DNA of 64,000 nucleotides from Christensenellaceae bacterium. GTDB lineage: Bacteria; Bacillota; Clostridia; Christensenellales; Christensenellaceae. Below are positions 2,869-64,000 of the stretch, piece after piece. A model generated the notes under the pieces. That model saw nothing but the letters and a program-made list of their open reading frames with translations. It did not search any database and was not told the DNA's origin. Position 1 is the stretch's first letter. Each line of letters opens with the position of its first letter. The stretch lies in assembly GCA_022846035.1 (NCBI GenBank), contig AP025580.1:1054001-1118000 (forward strand), in the 5' to 3' direction. The position numbers and the translations under genes were made by a program.

Positions 2869-4683
2869 ATGCACAAAAAACGTTGGATTGTAATAGTTTG
2901 CATTATGTGCGCGGCAGCCTTGCTGTTTGCCGGATGTACGGATTCGCCTGTACCGGCAGCCTCTGCGTCCGAAACGGAGTCAAAAGAGGTAAACGGAACC
3001 ATAGAGGGAGGAGATGCTTCCCTGGGGAAAGATATTAATTTAAAGGATATTAATATTGAAAAGCAGGGCGATAATACGGTTATTACAATGTCGTTTTTAA
3101 ACGGTTCCCGCACGGCGGGGGTAGATGAATCCAAAATTTCATCTGTTCCGCCTTATAAGGTTTCGATCTTGCCTGCGCCGGTGAGGCTGCAGGTGGACCT
3201 TAATATTGGGTTCTGGGATTATTCCAATAAGAGCGAATGGTTTACGGACAGTGTGATTTATGGCATGTTCAATACGGTACATTCGGGCAGCAGCGCGGTA
3301 TCCGTATACTTCCAGATGAATGAAAATATTCAGGCAAAAGTAAGCGAGGAAGCGGATACATTGGTGATTACGCTGACCCCCAAAACCGCACAATCAGAAA
3401 ACGCCTATTTTGTAGGCCTTAATGCCTATGAAGAATATGAGCAAAATCTGATTACGGCAGAGCTTGGTTTTACGCCCACCATGTGCGAAGGGCTTTCAGA
3501 TATTATTCTGATCTCTTCGCCGAAAAAGGATGAAGCCTCGGCAAAGAAGCTGGCGGACGAAACAAATCTGAAAATTGCCAGCGTAGCGCCCGCAAAGCAG
3601 GCCTATGTTTTTGAAATGAGTATGGACGCATTGCCGGTCTATAATAAGGAAGTGGATGCGGAGGGTATCCTCGCAGAGCCGGTGATGATGGTCGCGGGAA
3701 CGCCGGTGACCTTGCCGGTTTTGGTGGAAAACGGCCGTTATTTGTGCCAGCTTCCGGATGGGAGCATCCTCTACGCGCGTTCGTATGTGCCCAATGCTGC
3801 GGAGGATACGGAGCAGGTCTTAAAAGAAAAGCTTTGGCGCATCGAGCCGAACGGCAAGAAAACACAGCTCGAGCTGCCGGATTTTTATGGTATCGATAAG
3901 GCGGCGCCGTCTGCCGACGGCAGGTATATTGCCATACTGGATACGGGTATGGAAAATAAAGTACTGTACGTTTACGACACGCAGGAAAGCGTGCTTCATA
4001 ACCTCGGAGAAGAGGGGTTTGGCGATGCCACGACGTCTTTTGTGTGGGATTCGCAAAAGCCGGTGATTTATGCGATGACAGGGCTGGGAACCTTACAATT
4101 GATGGAATACGATTTCTCGGTGGACGATGCGGACAGGGTGCAGGCCGTTGAGGAGAAGAAAGGCGCCGAATCAAGGATCGCTCTGCGGAACGGGAAAATC
4201 TATTTTGCCGATAAATCCGCAAACAATGGCCAGGGTATGGTGTATGCCTTTGATCTGGGCACCAATGAGCGTTCGGAAGTGACCGCAGGCATTGATTTTG
4301 CGATTTCTCCGGATGGAGTGAACCTTGCGGTGATCGTACCTGTTCAGGAGGATGAAGAAGAGCTCATGTACCGGATCCAGATGCTGAACACGACGACTGG
4401 CGAGATTACGGATGTGATCAGCGATGCGATTATTAACAGCATGACTTTTGGTGCGGATAATGATACGCTGTATTTTACAACGCCGACCTATGATGGAGCG
4501 ACGGAGCCGTATCCGTTTGCTGTAGTAAAATATTCCGTTGCCGGCGGGGAGCAGACCTTGATTGGTTATTCGAAAACTTCGGAAATTGTGCCGGGAACGA
4601 AAACCGGCGAGTTTTACGTCGTAGATTACTTTAATCAGGGAGATAACAGCTTCTATATAACATATACCTATCAGGAAAAATAA
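2869..4683 (+). CDS. Predicted lipoprotein, AMIN-like N-terminus and beta-propeller-like C-terminus
   Basis: A 604-residue exported protein with a lipoprotein signal: a basic start (HKKRW), a hydrophobic core, and the lipobox LLFAGC with the acylated Cys near residue 23. After an acidic, Ser/Thr-rich spacer comes a block reminiscent of AMIN domains (alternating beta strands with PAPVRLQVDL). The C-terminal ~350 residues contain repeated strand patterns and phrases such as SADGRYIAILD and SPDGVNLAVI, as in TolB/WD-like propellers. I chose the ATG at 2869 because a GAGGGA ribosome site lies 4 to 9 bases upstream; a possible ATG at 2857 has no such site. No enzymatic motif is seen. It probably acts at the outer face of the membrane, and its role is unknown. 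Confidence 0.75.
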   Translation: MHKKRWIVIVCIMCAAALLFAGCTDSPVPAASASETESKEVNGTIEGGDASLGKDINLKDINIEKQGDNTVITMSFLNGSRTAGVDESKISSVPPYKVSILPAPVRLQVDLNIGFWDYSNKSEWFTDSVIYGMFNTVHSGSSAVSVYFQMNENIQAKVSEEADTLVITLTPKTAQSENAYFVGLNAYEEYEQNLITAELGFTPTMCEGLSDIILISSPKKDEASAKKLADETNLKIASVAPAKQAYVFEMSMDALPVYNKEVDAEGILAEPVMMVAGTPVTLPVLVENGRYLCQLPDGSILYARSYVPNAAEDTEQVLKEKLWRIEPNGKKTQLELPDFYGIDKAAPSADGRYIAILDTGMENKVLYVYDTQESVLHNLGEEGFGDATTSFVWDSQKPVIYAMTGLGTLQLMEYDFSVDDADRVQAVEEKKGAESRIALRNGKIYFADKSANNGQGMVYAFDLGTNERSEVTAGIDFAISPDGVNLAVIVPVQEDEEELMYRIQMLNTTTGEITDVISDAIINSMTFGADNDTLYFTTPTYDGATEPYPFAVVKYSVAGGEQTLIGYSKTSEIVPGTKTGEFYVVDYFNQGDNSFYITYTYQEK

Positions 4684-4699
4684 ACAAATTGTCATAGAA

Positions 4700-4727
4700 G
4701 GCTGCAAGCGCTTTGCGGCCTTTTTTT
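4700..4727 (+). terminator. Intrinsic terminator after the lipoprotein gene
   Basis: An 8-bp stem (GGCTGCAA with TTGCGGCC, one G-T pair) closes a 5-base loop and is followed by seven T. It ends the galU-to-lipoprotein transcript. Confidence 0.85.
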
Positions 4728-4744: not shown

Positions 4745-6241
4745 ATGAGGACGGTTTTAACTGCAATTAACGCAAGCTATGTGCATACCAATCCTGCAGT
4801 GCGCGGTTTGGCTGCTGCGGCGGACGAATGGGATGTTTTCTTCTGCGAATATAATATCAACCAGCCTGCGCAGGATATTTTGCATGATCTCTTGCAAAAA
4901 AAGCCGGTGGTGGTATGCTTCTCCTGTTACATCTGGAATATCGGCATGGTTTTGCGCGTCGCCGAGGATTTAAAGCGGATCGACCCGTACCTGCGGGTAA
5001 TACTCGGCGGCCCCGAGGTCTCGTTTGAAAGCCGCGTGTGGATGAGGAAAGCCCCTTTTATAGATTACATTGTATGCGGAGAGGGGGAAACGGTGCTGCC
5101 CCGGTTGCTGCAGGCAATAGAAAAGGGAAATGTGGGCGGTCTCAAAAGCGTGTTGTACCGCGAAAAGAATACGATTCGCGGCGACGACACCTATGCGGTG
5201 TGCGAGAACCTTGAAGCCTTTCCTGCGCCTTTTTCGGCAGCACAGGACTCTTATGACGAAAACCGGATTTATTATTACGAGTCCTCGAGAGGGTGCCCCT
5301 TTTCGTGCGCCTACTGCCTGTCAGGAGCTATTGGCGGGGGCGTCAGGGAAAAGTCTGTCGGTAAGGTCAAAAGGGATATTGATGTCTTTATACAAAAAAA
5401 TACGCGGCTTGTGAAATTTGTGGACCGGACTTTTAACGCCAATCGGCAACGGGCGAAAGAAATCTGGCGGTACGTGATCGAGCGGACAGGAAACACGTCT
5501 TTTCATTTTGAGGTCGGCCTTGATCTGTTGGATGAAGAAGCGATTATGCTGCTGCAAAGTGCGCCTGCGGGGAAAATACAACTGGAAGCAGGTATCCAAT
5601 CGTGTAATCAGAAGACGCTTGAGACAGTTATCCGCAAAACAAATATGACTGGGATGAAGCATAATGCGCGCGCGATCCTAAAGGCGGGAAATATCCATTT
5701 GCATCTTGATCTCATTGCGGGCTTGCCGCACGAAGATTTGCCAAGCTTCGCGCGTTCTTTCAACGAGGTATATGCGCTGTATCCGGACGCGCTGCAACTT
5801 GGTTTTTTAAAGCTGCTGCGGGGGACGGCCCTGAAAAGGACGGCCGGTGAATATGGAATTGTCGCACGCAGCTATGCGCCATACGAGGTGCTGAAAACGA
5901 ACGATATAACGGCAGATGAACTGCTCTGTCTGCGCGAGATAGCAGGCCTTGTGGACCGATATTATAATACGGGGAGAATGCGGAAAGGATTCGATTATAT
6001 CACAAAAAACAATATCTTGCAGCCGTTCGAACTTTACGCGAAGCTCTATGCGTTTTCCTGTGAGAGCGGGTATGCAGCACGTCCGATTAGCGTACGGGAC
6101 CAGTTTACATTGATAATCTCTTTTGCCAAATACGTATTAAAAGAAAGACAGCTTCTTTCGTTTTTGAAATACCTGAAGCAGGATTACATCCAAACAAAGG
6201 CCAAAGGCGCTATGCCAAACGAACTCGCGCAAATTGATTAA
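4745..6241 (+). CDS. B12-binding-domain radical SAM protein (DUF4080 type)
   Basis: A 498-residue protein with an N-terminal cobalamin-binding-like fold (residues ~1-125, containing PVVVCFSCYIWN and LGGPEVSFE) and a radical SAM core with the 4Fe-4S motif CPFSCAYC at about residue 183. Sequence such as LDLIAGLPHEDL fits the TIM-barrel strands, and the C-terminal ~170 residues match the layout of the DUF4080 family. No DxHxxG is visible, so cobalamin binding may be base-off without a His ligand, or absent. It follows a terminator and has its own AAGGAG site. The substrate is unknown; a methyltransferase or a small-molecule modification role is possible. Confidence 0.82.
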   Translation: MRTVLTAINASYVHTNPAVRGLAAAADEWDVFFCEYNINQPAQDILHDLLQKKPVVVCFSCYIWNIGMVLRVAEDLKRIDPYLRVILGGPEVSFESRVWMRKAPFIDYIVCGEGETVLPRLLQAIEKGNVGGLKSVLYREKNTIRGDDTYAVCENLEAFPAPFSAAQDSYDENRIYYYESSRGCPFSCAYCLSGAIGGGVREKSVGKVKRDIDVFIQKNTRLVKFVDRTFNANRQRAKEIWRYVIERTGNTSFHFEVGLDLLDEEAIMLLQSAPAGKIQLEAGIQSCNQKTLETVIRKTNMTGMKHNARAILKAGNIHLHLDLIAGLPHEDLPSFARSFNEVYALYPDALQLGFLKLLRGTALKRTAGEYGIVARSYAPYEVLKTNDITADELLCLREIAGLVDRYYNTGRMRKGFDYITKNNILQPFELYAKLYAFSCESGYAARPISVRDQFTLIISFAKYVLKERQLLSFLKYLKQDYIQTKAKGAMPNELAQID

Positions 6242-37790: not shown

Positions 37791-38804
37791 TTATTTACTT
37801 TGCATATCCATCCAGACCTGCGCGATCTGGACGGCGTTCGTTGCCGCACCCTTGCGGATGTTGTCGGCAACAACCCAGAGGTTCACGCCGGAATCAACGG
37901 AACGGTCCCGACGGATTCGACCGACATATACCTCGTCTTTGCCGGCAATATCGAGAGCCATCGGATATATGCCCTTGCTTTCGCCTTTCTTCACATCGTC
38001 CATAACGATGAGGCCGGGGAAGTCCGCCAGCGTTTTTTTCAGGTCGTCAAGATCGTAGTCCTTTTCAAACTCAACGTTGATGGATTCGCTGTGACCGTGG
38101 AAAACGGGTACGCGGACCGTCGTCGCAGTGATGCGCATATCGTCGTTATGAAGAATTTTGCGCGTCTCGTTGACCATCTTAAGTTCTTCCTTTGTATAAT
38201 CGTCCTCGTCGAAGACGTCGATCTGCGGCAGGCAGTTTCCAAAAATCGGATAGGGGAATTTTTGTGGGGCATCCCCATTGATACCGTTTTCAAGGTCGCT
38301 GTAACCGCCCATACCTGCGCCGGAAACAGCTTGGTACGTTGAATATACAACACGTTTAATTTTATATTTGTCGTCGAGCGGTTTTAGGGCGACCATTGCC
38401 TGAATCGTCGAACAATTCGGGTTGGCGATGATACCGTTATGCCACTTAATATCCTCCGGATTGACCTCCGGCACGACAAGCGGGACTTTCGGGTCCATAC
38501 GCCATGCGCTGGAATTGTCGATGACAAGCGCGCCTGCTTTGACAGCGCACGGCGCAAACTTTTCACTTGTGCCGCCGCCTGCGGAAAATAAAGCGATGTC
38601 AATATCCTTACCGTCAAAGCACGTTTCCGTGAGTTCTTCTATCGTATATTCCTTGTCCATGAAGTCGACCTTTTTACCGGCGCTCCTCGCGCTTGCAAAG
38701 AGGTAGTAATTCTCGACAGGGAGCTGACGCTCTTCCAAAACCTGCAAGAACTTTCTTCCGACCATTCCCGTTGCGCCGACAACGGCAACATTAAACTTTC
38801 TCAT
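37791..38804 (-). CDS. asd: Aspartate-semialdehyde dehydrogenase
   Basis: A 337-residue NADPH enzyme that reduces aspartyl phosphate. Motifs are VAVVGATGMVGRKFLQVL, FSAGGGTSEKFAPCAV, IIANPNCSTIQAMVAL with the active Cys, YQAVSGAGMGGYSDL, and RVPVFHGHSESINVEF with the catalytic His. The start is the ATG whose complement is 38802-38804, seven bases after GGAG on that strand; a codon four triplets upstream is not needed. It is the first gene after the lysine riboswitch. Confidence 0.96.
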   Translation of the reverse strand: MRKFNVAVVGATGMVGRKFLQVLEERQLPVENYYLFASARSAGKKVDFMDKEYTIEELTETCFDGKDIDIALFSAGGGTSEKFAPCAVKAGALVIDNSSAWRMDPKVPLVVPEVNPEDIKWHNGIIANPNCSTIQAMVALKPLDDKYKIKRVVYSTYQAVSGAGMGGYSDLENGINGDAPQKFPYPIFGNCLPQIDVFDEDDYTKEELKMVNETRKILHNDDMRITATTVRVPVFHGHSESINVEFEKDYDLDDLKKTLADFPGLIVMDDVKKGESKGIYPMALDIAGKDEVYVGRIRRDRSVDSGVNLWVVADNIRKGAATNAVQIAQVWMDMQSK

Positions 38805-38880
38805 ACATATCTCCATTCCCGCGCGTTTTGCACGCGCAACATTTAAAATATTTCAGCAGGGCGGGCCTGCGTAAATTCTG

Positions 38881-39115
38881 CAAAAAAAGAACGGCACACC
38901 TGGCGCGCCGTTTCCTGTATCATTTGTTTGATTCAGCAGCAGCGCAACACCGCGTATGCGGTGACAGTGATACAGATATTCTCTGCATCCCCAGATATAA
39001 GCGCACGGCGGGCAGCTTACTCTTCGGCGTTACGTCCTTTCCCGCAAAATGCAACCGTCTCGCCGAAAGACTGATCATTTGGGGTACTGATGCAATAACG
39101 CTCCTCTGTCTGTTC
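38881..39115 (-). promoter_or_regulatory. Lysine riboswitch (L box) with terminator
   Basis: Read on the minus strand, the leader holds conserved lysine-aptamer blocks: AGAGGAGCG near 39105, GGGAAAGGACG followed by GCCGAAG at about 39020-39043, CTGGGGATGCAGAGAATATC near 38980-39000, and CTGTCACC. A terminator follows: AACGGC (38907-38912) with GCCGTT (38890-38895), then seven U (38882-38888). When lysine binds, the terminator should form and stop asd-dapA-dapB expression. Assignment is by pattern; no covariance model was run. Confidence 0.85.
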
Positions 39116-39121
39116 TGCCTC

Positions 39122-59220: not shown

Positions 59221-60234
59221 TCAACCGATATGCTTATTTTCCAGCTCCATATAAGATTTCAGACGGCCCATCAATTTGCTGAAAGCCTGCGGCGTCAAAG
59301 ATTGTTTGCCATCGGAAAGCGCATGCTCGGGATCGTTATGTACCTCTATCATAAGTCCGTCCGCGCCTGCTGCGATAGCAGCCTTGGCGAGCGGTTCCAC
59401 CAGCCAGTTGAGGCCTGCGGCATGACTGGGGTCGGCAATCACCGGCAGATGCGATTTGTTTTTGAGAACAGGGATCGCGCTCAAATCAAAGGTGTTGCGC
59501 GTAAATGTTTCAAAAGTTCGGATACCGCGTTCGCAAAGGATTACATTTTCATTACCGCCGGCCATGATATATTCCGCGCTCATCAAAAATTCTTCAATCG
59601 TATTCGCAAGGCCGCGTTTTAGCAGAATCGGCTGTTTTAATTTTCCTAACTCTTTCAAAAGCCGGAAATTCTGCATATTGCGGGCGCCTACCTGTATCAC
59701 ATCAACATGCTCAAAGCAGGGAATATCGGAAATCCCCATAATTTCCGTTACAATGGGGATCGAAAGCTGTTTCTTGCATTCCAGGAGCAAGCGGATACCG
59801 TCTTTCTCCAGCCCCTGGAAAGCATAAGGAGAGGTACGCGGCTTGAAAGCGCCGCCGCGCAGGAAATTTGCACCAGCCTTTTGTATGTCGCGCGTAATAT
59901 CAAGGATCTGTTGCTCGCTCTCCACAGAACAAGGACCGGCGATCATTGCAAAATGCCCGCCGCCGATCAGCTGGCCGCCTGCGTTGATGACGGTATCGTC
60001 CGTATGGAATTTGCGGTTGGCTTTTTTATAGGGCTCGGATACACGACGCACATCTTCCACGATATCCTTAGCTTTAATGCTGTCAATATCGACAAGGGAA
60101 GTGTCGCCAACGAGACCGATAATGGTCGTATTTTCACCCTTGCTCAAATGAATTTTGAAGCTTTGTTCTTCCAGATTATGAATAAGTTCCTTTAGCTTGT
60201 TTTCGGGTGCTTTTTGCTTAACAATAATAATCAA
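59221..60234 (-). CDS. aroF: 3-deoxy-7-phosphoheptulonate synthase (type I beta), copy 1
   Basis: A 337-residue DAHP synthase joining PEP and erythrose-4-phosphate, the first step of aromatic synthesis. An N-terminal ferredoxin-like regulatory domain (~1-70) is followed by the catalytic barrel with [56 protein letters not shown] and IADPSHAAG. The start is TTG 60234 with GAGGT upstream on that strand; it aligns with the ATG of the second copy (60782). It is monocistronic and divergent from copy 2, with TTGCCT (60313-60318) and TATAAT (60290-60295) as promoter. Confidence 0.94.
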   Translation of the reverse strand: MIIIVKQKAPENKLKELIHNLEEQSFKIHLSKGENTTIIGLVGDTSLVDIDSIKAKDIVEDVRRVSEPYKKANRKFHTDDTVINAGGQLIGGGHFAMIAGPCSVESEQQILDITRDIQKAGANFLRGGAFKPRTSPYAFQGLEKDGIRLLLECKKQLSIPIVTEIMGISDIPCFEHVDVIQVGARNMQNFRLLKELGKLKQPILLKRGLANTIEEFLMSAEYIMAGGNENVILCERGIRTFETFTRNTFDLSAIPVLKNKSHLPVIADPSHAAGLNWLVEPLAKAAIAAGADGLMIEVHNDPEHALSDGKQSLTPQAFSKLMGRLKSYMELENKHIG

Positions 60235-60289
60235 TTCGTTTTACCTCGTACATGTATTGGTCTGAAGCGATTTCAACCAGTTTTTTATC

Positions 60290-60318
60290 ATTATATAGCA
60301 ATTTGCGGAGATAGGCAA
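60290..60318 (-). promoter_or_regulatory. Promoter of aroF copy 1
   Basis: On the minus strand TTGCCT and TATAAT are 17 bases apart; the leader to the TTG start is short (~55 bases) and shows no attenuator. Confidence 0.65.
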
Positions 60319-60359
60319 AAAGAAAATTAATATTACCGAAAGTTTACGTAAATCTGACA

Positions 60360-60396
60360 AAAAGGGAACCTCCGCCTGACGCGGAGGTTCCCTTTT
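60360..60396. terminator. Strong orphan hairpin between the divergent aroF promoters
   Basis: A perfect 16-bp stem (AAAAGGGAACCTCCGC with GCGGAGGTTCCCTTTT) with a 5-base loop has A/T ends on both sides. It looks like a bidirectional terminator but no gene ends into it. It may insulate the two promoters or end a small RNA. The bases 60397-60534 show no other feature. Confidence 0.6.
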
Positions 60397-60534
60397 AAAT
60401 ATAGTACTGGAGGAACATCATATAAAAAAATTCTGTTCTTTGATAATAGAATAACATGTCCGAAAGAACTTGTAAAGACTTTTTTGTAATATTATTGTAA
60501 TAAATAGAAGTTTTTTTGCAAAAAATAAAAAAAG

Positions 60535-60563
60535 TTGAATTATTTGGAAAAATCAAATATAAT
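60535..60563 (+). promoter_or_regulatory. Promoter of the leader - aroF2 - aroB - aroA operon
   Basis: TTGAAT (60535-60540) and TATAAT (60558-60563) are separated by 17 bases, in an A/T-rich upstream context. Confidence 0.8.
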
Positions 60564-60592
60564 ACAACTAGTAAATTAAAGGAGCAGTTTAA

Positions 60593-60670
60593 ATGGCACG
60601 GGCATCGAAACGATTTTTTAGCACATTTTGCTTTAGCGGATTTTATCGCTATGGCTTGTTTTTGTGTTAA
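60593..60670 (+). CDS. Phe/Tyr-rich leader peptide of the aromatic operon
   Basis: A 25-codon frame (ATG to TAA) directly behind a strong AAAGGAG site. The peptide has six Phe and two Tyr (for example RFFSTFCF and GFYRYG), a composition expected of a leader whose translation speed reports Phe/Tyr-tRNA charging, as with pheL of enterobacteria. It is followed after ~40 bases by an intrinsic terminator and then by DAHP synthase. Reading frame and site are seen; the regulatory role is inferred. Confidence 0.8.
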   Translation: MARASKRFFSTFCFSGFYRYGLFLC

Positions 60671-60712
60671 TATGTCGGTGTGAGTGCGTATTCTAGGAAA
60701 ATTCAGAATCGA

Positions 60713-60749
60713 ATGCTGTAAGCACCGGCAAGTGTTTACGGCATTTTTT
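60713..60749 (+). terminator. Attenuator terminator before aroF copy 2
   Basis: A 13-bp stem (60713-60725 with 60732-60744; ATGCTGTAAGCAC pairs with GTGTTTACGGCAT, two G-T pairs) has the loop CGGCAA and is followed by T6. Upstream ATTCT (60690-60694) and AGAAT (60705-60709) could form part of a competing antiterminator. Confidence 0.88.
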
Positions 60750-60781
60750 ATTTGCAGGCAAACAGAAAGAGGTAAAAGAGC

Positions 60782-61783
60782 ATGATTGTAGTAATGAAAA
60801 GCGATGCGACGGAAGCGGAAATTCTCAAGGTAACGGACAGGCTGGTGCAAAAGGGCATGCAGGTACAGACCAACCACGGTATTGATTGTACGGTCCTCGG
60901 CGTTTTGGGAGACACCTATACGGTGGACAAGGAAAGGATCGGTCTGATGGGCGGCGTTGAGCGCGTGGTCTCTGTGCAGGAACCCTTTAAAAAGGCGAAT
61001 CGTAAATTCCATCCGGAGGATAGCGTAATCGACGTGGATGGTATCAGAATTGGGGACGGGGATTTAAAAGTGATGGCAGGCCCCTGTTCGGTCGAATCAA
61101 CCGAGCAGCTTACATGCGTAGCGCAGAGCATCCAAAAATCGGGGGCGCAGATTTTAAGAGGCGGCGCTTTCAAGCCGCGTACTTCGCCCTATGCCTTTCA
61201 GGGACTGGGCGAACAAGGCCTCGATATTCTTGTAAATGTCAGGGACAAGGTCCACATGCCGATCGTAACGGAAATTATGGCTCCTAGGTATGTCGAGCTA
61301 TTCGCCGAAAAGGTGGATATGATACAGATCGGCGCACGCAATATGCAGAACTTTGACTTGCTCAAAGAAGTAGGACAGACAAATAAACCAATCCTTTTGA
61401 AACGCGGCCTTTCCAATACCCTGGAAGAATGGCTGATGAGCGCGGAATATATCATGTCCGGCGGTAATGAAAATGTTGTGCTGTGCGAGCGCGGTATTCG
61501 TACCTTTGAAACATATACGAGAAACACGCTTGATTTAAGCGCGATTCCGGCGGTCAAAAAAATGTCGCATTTGCCGATCGTCGTGGATCCCAGTCACGCG
61601 ACAGGACTGCCTTACATGGTGGAGCCGCTCGCCCTTGCGGCAGTGGCGGCGGGAGCGGACGGCCTTATGATAGAGGTGCATAACGATCCCAAGCATGCGC
61701 TGTGCGATGGCGCGCAGTCATTGACGCCGGAGCAGTTCGACAGTATCATGAATAAAATCAACGTTTTAAAAAGCGTGATGTAA
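60782..61783 (+). CDS. aroF: 3-deoxy-7-phosphoheptulonate synthase (type I beta), copy 2
   Basis: A 333-residue paralogue of the divergent copy, with the same layout: a regulatory domain ~1-70 ([20 protein letters not shown]), then [56 protein letters not shown] and VDPSHATG. It heads aroF-aroB-aroA and lies behind the leader peptide and attenuator, so its level should follow Phe/Tyr supply. The ATG is preceded by AAGAGGT. Confidence 0.95.
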
Positions 61784-61796
61784 GGGTGGGCAAAAC

Positions 61797-62816
61797 ATGG
61801 AAAAGGTACAGGTAAATGCGGACAACGGCAGTTATGAGATTTTGATCGGAAAGGATATTCTGAACGACTCTTATTTGAAAGCGTTCACGAATTACGTCGT
61901 GGTTACGGATGAGATTGTATACGGTTTATATAAGGAACGTTTTCCGAATGCGAAATTCATTGTTCTCAAGGCGGGTGAAACGTCCAAAAGTATGGAAAAC
62001 CTTGAGCTGATTTATGATCGGCTGATGGAGTTTAAAATGGACAGGGGCGGCATATTGGCGGCTCTTGGCGGCGGCGTAGTGGGTGATATTTGCGGTTTTG
62101 CCGCGGCAACATTCAAACGCGGTATTCGCTTCGTACAATATCCGACGACCCTGCTTGCGCAGGTCGACAGCTCGGTCGGGGGAAAGGTCGCAGTCAATTT
62201 GAAAAGCGGAAAAAATATGGTCGGCGCTTTTTATCAGCCGGTTGCTGTTTTTGCGGATACCGATACACTCCAAACGTTGGATAAACGGCAATATGCGGCG
62301 GGGATGGCGGAAGTCATCAAGTATGCGTATATCGCGGACAGCAAGCTTCATCAGGATTTACAGCGCGGCGGGGAAAAGATCGACACTATCGTAAAACGTT
62401 GCTGTGAGACCAAGGCAGACTATGTGCGGCAGGATCCTTATGATACGGGAATCCGTATGCAGCTTAACTATGGACATACGATTGGACACGCCATCGAAAC
62501 TGTGGCCGGATATGGGAGATTCCTGCATGGCGAGGCCATAGCGATCGGCATGGTGTATGCTGCCCGTCTTGGCGAAGCTCTGGGGATCTCGCCTGAGGGG
62601 CTTGCGCAGGATACGATCTCGTTGTTGCGCAAATACGGTTTGCCTGTTATGCTGGAAAAGGATATTTTACTGGACGCCCTACAGATATTATTAGCGGATA
62701 AGAAAGCGGAAAACGGCGATATATATTTTGTTTTGATCGACCGCGTCGGACATGCAATCACACGCAAGCTTCCGCTTGACGTAATACAGAAAACGGTAAA
62801 GGAAATGGATATATGA
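61797..62816 (+). CDS. aroB: 3-dehydroquinate synthase
   Basis: A 339-residue NAD- and metal-dependent cyclase that turns DAHP into 3-dehydroquinate. It shows [66 protein letters not shown], the metal-binding [12 protein letters not shown] and HGEAIAIGM. It is 13 bases after aroF2, and its stop overlaps the aroA start (ATGA). Confidence 0.96.
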
Positions 62817-64000
62817 GACGAATTACACCATCGGTAATTTCCGGCAGCATCAAAGTGATTCCTTCCAAGAGTATCTCGCACCGTGCGCTCATTTGCGCCG
62901 CCCTCGCACGGGGAATATCATCTCTGAAAAACATTGCGCTTTCGGACGATATTGAAGCGACCGCAAACGCCCTGAGAGATATGGGCTTATGCGAGTACGA
63001 TATGGTGGGCGACTGCTGCGTCATTTCGGGCGGGCTGCACAAGAAGAGCAAGCCCGTGATCGATTGCAGGGAATCTGGTTCTACGCTGCGTTTCATTTTA
63101 CCGCTTGCGCTTGACGGAAAGGAGCATTCCCTCACCGGACGCGGACGTTTGCTTAAGCGGCCGATGGGCGGTTATGATAAAATTTTCGCGCGTAACCACG
63201 TTCATATGGAGAGGACGGAGGACAAGATCCATATTTGCGGCTCGCTCGACGGCGGAGAATACGACCTGCCAGGCGACGTGTCCTCTCAATTTATTTCGGG
63301 ACTGCTGTTTAAGCTGCCGACCCTGTTCGACGACTCGGGTCTTCATATCTCAACAGAGCCGGAATCGAGGCCGTATATTGAACTGACGCAGGAAGTGCAG
63401 AAAAATTTCAAGGTGAAGAGCCGTTGGGAGGGAAACACCATTGAAATTTCCGGACGACAGGGATATGTGGCCTGTGATATGGAAATTGAGGGCGACTATT
63501 CCCACGCGGCATTTTTCGCAGCGGCTGCCGCTATGGCCGGCAGCGTGGAAATTACGGGCCTTAGCAGCAGTTCTAAGCAGGGAGACCGCGCGATAGTCGG
63601 ATTGCTGAAATGCATGGGCGCCGAAACCGAAGAAACAGAAAGCGCCCTTGTTGTGCGCAAGGCCGCTTTGAAGCCGATTGAAGTGGATGTTTCGCAAATA
63701 CCGGACCTGGTTCCCGTGCTGGCGGTGCTTGGCTGCGCGGCACAAGGAAAAACAAGAATTTTCAACGCGGGACGCCTGCGTTACAAAGAGAGCGACAGGC
63801 TTCACGCCATAACGATGGAATTGGAAAAATTAGGAGCGGACATCGTTGAATATCAGGACAGTCTGGTGATTCATGGGAACGGAAGTATTTCCGGCGGGCA
63901 GGTCGATAGTCATAACGACCACCGCATTGCAATGGCGCTTACCGTTGCATCCTGTATCGCGAAAGATGAAATTACGGTCCATGGCGCAGGCTGTGTCAGA
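62813..64000 (+). CDS. aroA: 3-phosphoshikimate 1-carboxyvinyltransferase (EPSP synthase), cut by right edge
   Basis: The first 396 codons of EPSP synthase, which joins PEP to shikimate-3-phosphate. Visible are the N-terminal SKSISHRALICAAL, CRESGSTLRFILPLAL in place of the usual NSGTTxR block, GRGRLLKRPMGG, SSQFISGLLF, NAGRLRYKESDRL with the catalytic Glu/Arg, and DSHNDHRIAMAL. The gene runs off the window with ~30 residues missing. It overlaps the aroB stop by 4 bases. Confidence 0.95.
   Translation, partial: MRRITPSVISGSIKVIPSKSISHRALICAALARGISSLKNIALSDDIEATANALRDMGLCEYDMVGDCCVISGGLHKKSKPVIDCRESGSTLRFILPLALDGKEHSLTGRGRLLKRPMGGYDKIFARNHVHMERTEDKIHICGSLDGGEYDLPGDVSSQFISGLLFKLPTLFDDSGLHISTEPESRPYIELTQEVQKNFKVKSRWEGNTIEISGRQGYVACDMEIEGDYSHAAFFAAAAAMAGSVEITGLSSSSKQGDRAIVGLLKCMGAETEETESALVVRKAALKPIEVDVSQIPDLVPVLAVLGCAAQGKTRIFNAGRLRYKESDRLHAITMELEKLGADIVEYQDSLVIHGNGSISGGQVDSHNDHRIAMALTVASCIAKDEITVHGAGCVR

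Follow-up and report, generated by a model that had tools for sequence, protein, structure and literature searches.

A probable phenylalanine-responsive, ribosome-mediated attenuator ahead of the aroF operon in a Christensenellaceae bacterium

The aroF operon of a Christensenellaceae bacterium is very likely controlled by a ribosome-mediated transcription attenuator for aromatic (mainly Phe) biosynthesis, in which the ribosome stalls at Phe (and Tyr) codons of a leader. Judged from its sequence, this gut bacterium probably gauges its Phe supply by the speed of the ribosome on this short Phe-rich ORF. The locus lies in a 64,000-nt stretch of contig AP025580.1 (the window), whose coordinates are used throughout; features are on the plus strand unless noted. 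The original prediction had described here a promoter, the Shine-Dalgarno (SD) sequence AAAGGAG, a 25-codon leader containing six Phe codons and two Tyr codons, and a T6 terminator, all in front of aroF-aroB-aroA, and its positions and counts proved right.

A consensus scan found the promoter-like site TTGAAT-17-TATAAT at 60535..60563, with 10 of 12 matches. Sigma-70-like sites are frequent in 60200-60800 (8 seen vs. 2.4 expected), so the promoter match by itself is weak evidence. By eye, TTGAA and TATAAT stand at the equivalent place in loci L003, L004, L005 and L006, and in weaker form in L007 and L009. The SD (60578..60584) is located 8 nt upstream of the ATG at 60593. The leader ORF (60593..60670, 25 codons) encodes MARASKRFFSTFCFSGFYRYGLFLC-stop; its six Phe codons are all TTT and its two Tyr codons both TAT. 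Region 1 (GCAUCGA, 60602..60608, codons 4-6) lies directly 5' of the tandem Phe codons 8-9 (60614..60619), the proposed control codons, and RNAalifold on seven sequences predicted a leader hairpin spanning the Phe/Tyr codons (60618..60670). The ORF is followed by region 2 (UGUCGGUGU + UGCGUAUUC, 60673..60693), the 5' side of the putative antiterminator, with limits taken from the predicted duplex. Region 3 (60711..60730), its 3' side, was placed by pairing with region 2 and overlaps the 5' arm and loop of the terminator.

The intrinsic terminator with T6 (60711..60749) was identified by scanning, folding and covariation. Its stem, predicted earlier as 13 bp, amounts to 15 pairs (60711-60746) once G-U is allowed, with T6 at 60744-60749. 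Two terminator-like sites were found in 60200-60800 vs. 0.3 expected, the second being the inner hairpin of the leader. The 182-nt leader RNA (60571-60752) gave a folding z of -3.55, and none of 200 shuffles was as low. Three hallmarks of a ribosome-mediated attenuator are present: a short ORF with a ribosome-binding site before the operon (by sequence and conservation), conserved enrichment of end-product codons (8 of 24 are F/Y), and an intrinsic terminator between the leader ORF and aroF.

The first regulated gene would be aroF, encoding DAHP synthase (60782..61783; NCBIfam TIGR01361, 409.5 bits, cut-off 267.75). It is followed by aroB (61797..62816; TIGR01357, 344.7 bits, cut-off 305) and by aroA (62813..64000; TIGR01356, 353.3 bits, cut-off 287.25), which runs off the window. 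The operon order in the genome is aroF-aroB-aroA-aroC-pheA-aroK, the last three genes lying beyond the window. NCBIfam cut-offs were passed by aroF, aroB, aroA and aroC. The pheA product, a chorismate mutase/prephenate dehydratase fusion, passed the dehydratase model only (220.5 bits, cut-off 219) and scored below the cut-off of the fused-protein model (226.7 vs. 577); the shikimate kinase (aroK) product also stayed below the NCBIfam cut-offs (best 128.5 vs. 204). Phe as the signal fits the presence of pheA inside the operon.

A second DAHP synthase gene lies divergently at 59221-60234 (minus strand). Upstream of it, at about 60476-60355 (minus strand), is a conserved block, approximately UAUAAUGUUCCUCCAGUACYAUA, with its own promoter-like site; a GC-rich hairpin and then a T-run come after the block, and the hairpin arms vary from species to species. 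A further promoter-like site of the gene lies downstream. By eye, the block is present in all six Christensenella genomes (as a variant in G001) and in G006, and it stays with the gene where the gene is found at another place (G004). The exact pattern occurs in 8 of 61 genomes; the occurrences in G014 and G015 are inside other genes and probably due to chance. The block may represent a small RNA that exposes UUCCUCC, or else a second attenuator. An F/Y leader for this second gene was also considered and rejected: the frame MMFLQYYI in the window is by eye not kept in relatives.

We estimated how easily such a leader could arise by chance. Among the 42 mechanical ORFs of the window with at least 250 aa, F and Y make up 7.5% of codons, and the binomial probability of at least 8 F/Y among the 24 leader codons is 2.4e-4. 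Shuffling the 450 upstream bases, however, yielded in 18 of 2000 trials an ORF that had an SD and 8 or more aromatic residues, so the window leader taken alone is only moderately unlikely. That frequency is what favors the view that the terminator merely ends stray transcripts and that the ORF owes its F/Y richness to AT-rich DNA, as a by-product. In the sequence comparisons it is conservation, not single-case statistics, that settles the reality of the leader, and conservation contradicts the by-product view.

An aromatic-rich, SD-preceded leader followed by a terminator was found in all six Christensenella genomes, with SD matches of 5-6 bases in each. A strict rule was then applied, which asked for 12-50 codons, an SD, and F/Y/W residues that number 7 or more and make up at least 20%. 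Of 18 family genomes, one was dropped with its aroF at a contig end; among the 17 whose upstream DNA could be used, each scored by its best aroF copy, 16 have a leader of this standard. The one remaining genome (L008) carries a weaker leader with 4 F/Y. The tandem codons 8-9 are TTT TTT in six of the seven rows of alignment A1 and TTT TAT in L009. Arg-Phe is invariant across all eight aligned leader peptides, and in Christensenella the aromatic codons are kept while many other residues drift. The conservation of the ORF and its Phe codons, on which the original prediction was staked, is therefore borne out.

Strict leaders also precede aroF well outside the family. In a sample of 106 fetched loci, biased toward close aroF relatives and with some near-identical rows, 63 had a strict leader, whereas shuffles predict 2.3 and the reverse strand gave 1 (the 106 are 111 loci minus three duplicates, a second aroF copy and one locus with 25 upstream bases). 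A class-wide sample of 118 genomes, 86 of them with an aroF match, provided 90 upstream regions from 79 genomes; here 35 had a strict leader vs. 1.6 expected, again with 1 on the reverse strand. The window's own genome and its sister, one contig-edge match, four partial matches and lower-ranked second copies were left out of this set. The two samples overlap, at least two contigs appearing common to both. Loci without a strict leader numbered 43 of 106 and 55 of 90, and a looser scan of the 43 added some. From these sequence counts, a leader-type switch before aroF seems frequent in Clostridia, beyond the Christensenella lineage. The excess over shuffles and over the reverse strand in both samples argues against a by-product of AT-rich DNA, an explanation we find hardly credible. 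The spread is also wider than the original prediction supposed, which had called a pheL-like element unusual here.

In Clostridium and a Bacillota MAG, second copies of aroF are preceded by another kind of frame, one rich in Trp/Tyr, about W-x-W-R-x-W-x-Y-I-S. It starts at -221 (L080), -417 (L068), -292 (L092) and -293 (L094) relative to aroF. This frame could be a Trp-type leader or a chance occurrence.

RNAalifold on the seven sequences of A1 recovered both the leader hairpin and the terminator, and 8 of the 33 predicted pairs changed on both sides (five in the leader hairpin, three in the terminator). For Clostridium, the alignment gave 20 predicted pairs, of which four changed on both sides, all of them in the terminator. 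Region 1 (60602-60608) can pair with part of region 2 (60673-60681), and the same part of region 2 can pair with region 3 (60722-60730). With one row realigned by hand, the 1:2 pairing occupied 55 of 63 cells vs. 12-25 when slid by 1-3 columns, and the 2:3 pairing 53 of 56 cells vs. 12-29; on the unaltered alignment 85.7% of the 2:3 cells were paired. L009 pairs poorly, with most of 1:2 broken and 2:3 partly so. One position changes in step in regions 1/2/3: it is C/G/C in L001 and L003, U/A/U in L004, L005 and L006, and U/G/C, a wobble intermediate, in L007. Such concerted change is as expected for two mutually exclusive pairings, though the tree is small and the triple change stands for just one or two events on it.

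The antiterminator covariation score alone was not above column shuffles for the seven sequences. The predicted antiterminator duplex of the window reached -22.3 kcal/mol vs. -13.1 ± 2.7 in 200 shuffles (p 0.005). Among 67 loci (73 leaders entered, minus six without a detected terminator), pairing of region 2 with the terminator 5' side beat shuffles at p ≤ 0.05 in 32, with a mean z of -1.76; the other 35 were not individually significant, including the family members L005, L006, L007, L008, L009, L016 and L027. Comparison and folding together support an antiterminator that would be mutually exclusive with the terminator and with the 1:2 pairing. The peptide-based attenuation proposed in the original prediction gains support from this exclusive pairing and from the covariation in leader and terminator.

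These elements suggest the following order of events. RNA polymerase would start near 60570, and a ribosome would translate the leader behind it. When Phe-tRNA (and Tyr-tRNA) is plentiful, the ribosome would reach the stop codon and cover region 2; region 3 would then be free, the terminator would form and transcription would end near 60749. When Phe-tRNA is scarce, the ribosome would stall at the tandem Phe codons 8-9, presumably the control codons, and would cover region 1, because these codons stand directly behind it. Region 2 would then pair with region 3 as an antiterminator, and the polymerase would enter aroF-aroB-aroA-aroC-pheA-aroK. Phe probably outweighs Tyr in this sensing.

We modeled the ribosome as a block on the folded RNA of nine family members. 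For the stall we used the second Phe of a pair if the rule found one; in L007 and L009 a Tyr, codon 5, served instead. With the ribosome modeled at the aromatic codon, the terminator 5' arm was predicted to pair upstream in 9/9 nascent RNAs (RNA up to the terminator loop); once the ribosome was placed at the stop codon, formation of the terminator was predicted in 9/9. Even with no ribosome, the terminator 5' arm was already paired upstream by at least nine bases in five of the nine nascent RNAs. When the full-length RNA was folded with the ribosome stalled, energy favored the terminator in six of nine; a working switch would thus need to be kinetic, governed by the order in which events occur as the RNA is made. 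Known attenuators share this dependence.

The leader RNA could instead be a ligand- or protein-binding element (riboswitch, T-box or TRAP-like) with an incidental ORF, as the structured hairpin inside the leader and some codon constraint might suggest. No T-box, riboswitch or other Rfam RNA reached its gathering score in the leader, which speaks against the T-box that the original prediction had named as a competing cause of the terminator. At E up to 5, the 18 weak Rfam matches in 60200-60800 all fell within 60200-60489, short of the leader. No Rfam family reached gathering score in the 39 distinct aroF loci scanned of the 111, which were taken in two sets of 20 with L041 in both. The enterobacterial Phe_leader model gave no match in the window at gathering score or in 60200-60800 at E up to 5. 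The genome has four T-box matches (L112-L115), two over the cut-off, and these lie before other genes: hisS, a TrpB-like gene, glyS and ileS (the last by eye). None of the four precedes Phe or Tyr genes. Together with the recurrence of aromatic enrichment and an SD over the class, these results make a binding element with an incidental ORF very improbable, and we retain ribosome-mediated attenuation.

Two other regulatory-type features were seen in the window. A lysine riboswitch (38932-39116, minus strand, 76.9 bits) is located upstream of the gene at 37791-38816, which by eye reads like aspartate-semialdehyde dehydrogenase. The gene at 4745-6241 is preceded, within 4562-4726 (plus strand), by a short ORF with an SD (MVIRKLRKLCRERKPASFTS) and by a terminator of 13 pairs; this ORF has no obvious residue bias besides basic residues.

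The aroF leaders also carry constraint at the codon level. In alignment A2 (22 leaders picked for likeness, 20 of them from Clostridium-titled records), a nine-codon block, W-G-F-x-F-S-A-G-Y, had 0 synonymous differences in 1891 same-residue pairs, vs. 166/1983 before the block and 85/787 after it. A recount on all 25 Clostridium leaders, five of which are absent from A2, gave 107/2316 in the block, 163/1885 before and 155/969 after. A strict absence of synonymous change is thus true of the 22 picked rows only; in the recount synonymous change is reduced, not absent. The block pattern was found once per genome in 17/17 genomes searched, 15 exact and two with three mismatches; one of these genomes is a Clostridiales MAG.

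In a loosely redundancy-filtered set of 84 leaders, which are related so that motif counts are not independent, the motif Ser was AGC in 33/33 vs. 84/207 elsewhere, and the motif Gly was GGC or GGT in 31/31 vs. 98/128 elsewhere. The pattern T[AG]GC-N3-GG[CT]TA occurred in 20 of these 84 leaders vs. 7.1 (maximum 14) after synonymous re-drawing and 8.1 (maximum 14) after within-leader permutation. The motif Ser was likewise AGC in 25/25 Clostridium leaders.

These counts bear on a further alternative, that the nascent leader peptide is itself the sensor and a free metabolite arrests the ribosome, as with TnaC, in place of codons sensing tRNA charging. Some residues besides Phe/Tyr are indeed shared between genera, such as S/G-x-G-Y/F and, toward the end, C-C, and the synonymous variation of the block in the 25 unselected Clostridium leaders leaves room for peptide-level selection. 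The uniform Ser AGC, on the other hand, points to RNA, and the aromatic codons outlast the drift of many residues in Christensenella. We regard a peptide sensor as unlikely and the reading of codons by tRNA charging as the better account. No leader-peptide family was found in NCBIfam or Pfam for the window leader and one Clostridium leader, and a search of the genome for a second leader copy gave, besides the true one, matches only at E about 0.3 or worse.

The pattern T[AG]GC-N3-GG[CT]TA could fold as a four-pair hairpin with a four-base loop. RNAalifold pairs the motif bases with upstream segments instead, and none of those leader pairs changed on both sides. The window leader is without the exact pattern; it forms UAGCG-GAUUUUAU-CGCUA at a like place, and both arms of this hairpin change together in relatives. 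The window hairpin and the Clostridium motif may be homologous. The motif could be a small hairpin, URGC-NNNG-GYUA, of which Christensenella would carry an enlarged form. That an RNA-level constraint may act on codons within many aroF leaders is an open lead. It is conceivable, although we are inclined to doubt it, that the Clostridia aroF leaders are one old, undescribed leader-RNA family in which the RGC-NNN-GGY codons are held for a second RNA job. Such a family is weakened as a reading because the recount found synonymous change reduced, not absent, and because RNAalifold prefers another pairing. Our guess for the second job is pausing of RNA polymerase until the first ribosome catches up.

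Control of aromatic amino acid genes in Firmicutes is usually told as T-box plus TRAP, and an older comparative study reportedly treated aromatic regulation in low-GC Gram-positives. In the open-access titles, abstracts and passages searched in PubMed Central, we found no account, for Clostridia or Christensenella, of a Phe leader ahead of aroF; the Acholeplasma motif described below came nearest. To that extent the suggestion that the element may be undescribed in its lineage stands, but an aroF uORF from Acholeplasma and his attenuators from Firmicutes are already published. The kind of mechanism is known; the Clostridia member and its spread appear new within the searched literature. If the reading is true, ribosome-mediated attenuation would be a common solution in Clostridia (a leader stands before aroF in 35 of 90 class-wide loci), and transcription and translation there would be coupled closely enough for attenuation to work. 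Should the codon constraint prove to be a pause or timing signal, it would offer a direct test of synchrony between RNA polymerase and the leader ribosome outside enterobacteria. The mechanism is textbook; what merits further attention is its breadth and the constraint at codon level.

Among the closest known systems is the enterobacterial pheL-pheA attenuator, which shares the short Phe-rich leader, mutually exclusive hairpins, a terminator and pheA in the operon. The present leader differs in having no match to the corresponding Rfam model, in preceding aroF and a whole shikimate operon, and in its host lineage. T-box leaders of aromatic genes resemble it in controlling a terminator/antiterminator choice by tRNA charging, whereas no T-box is present here and the aroF leader would read codons via the ribosome. 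The uORFC-13-1 motif is likewise a uORF with Phe codon(s) and a terminator before aroF; it differs in coming from Acholeplasma and environmental DNA, with 24 sequences and at least one Phe codon (PMC8632094). His leader peptides in bacilli were reported in a paper whose authors say that they knew of no demonstrated case beyond Proteobacteria and Actinobacteria, apart from the atypical ermC leader (PMC2965389), and another paper reports His attenuators in several Firmicutes groups (PMC9413887). They are alike in being ribosome-mediated attenuation outside Proteobacteria and Actinobacteria, and differ in using His instead of Phe/Tyr and in serving other operons. Finally, a small-RNA paper on Corynebacterium glutamicum names an aroF leader (PMC4046766), which is alike as a leader before aroF in a Gram-positive and differs in that its host is an actinobacterium.
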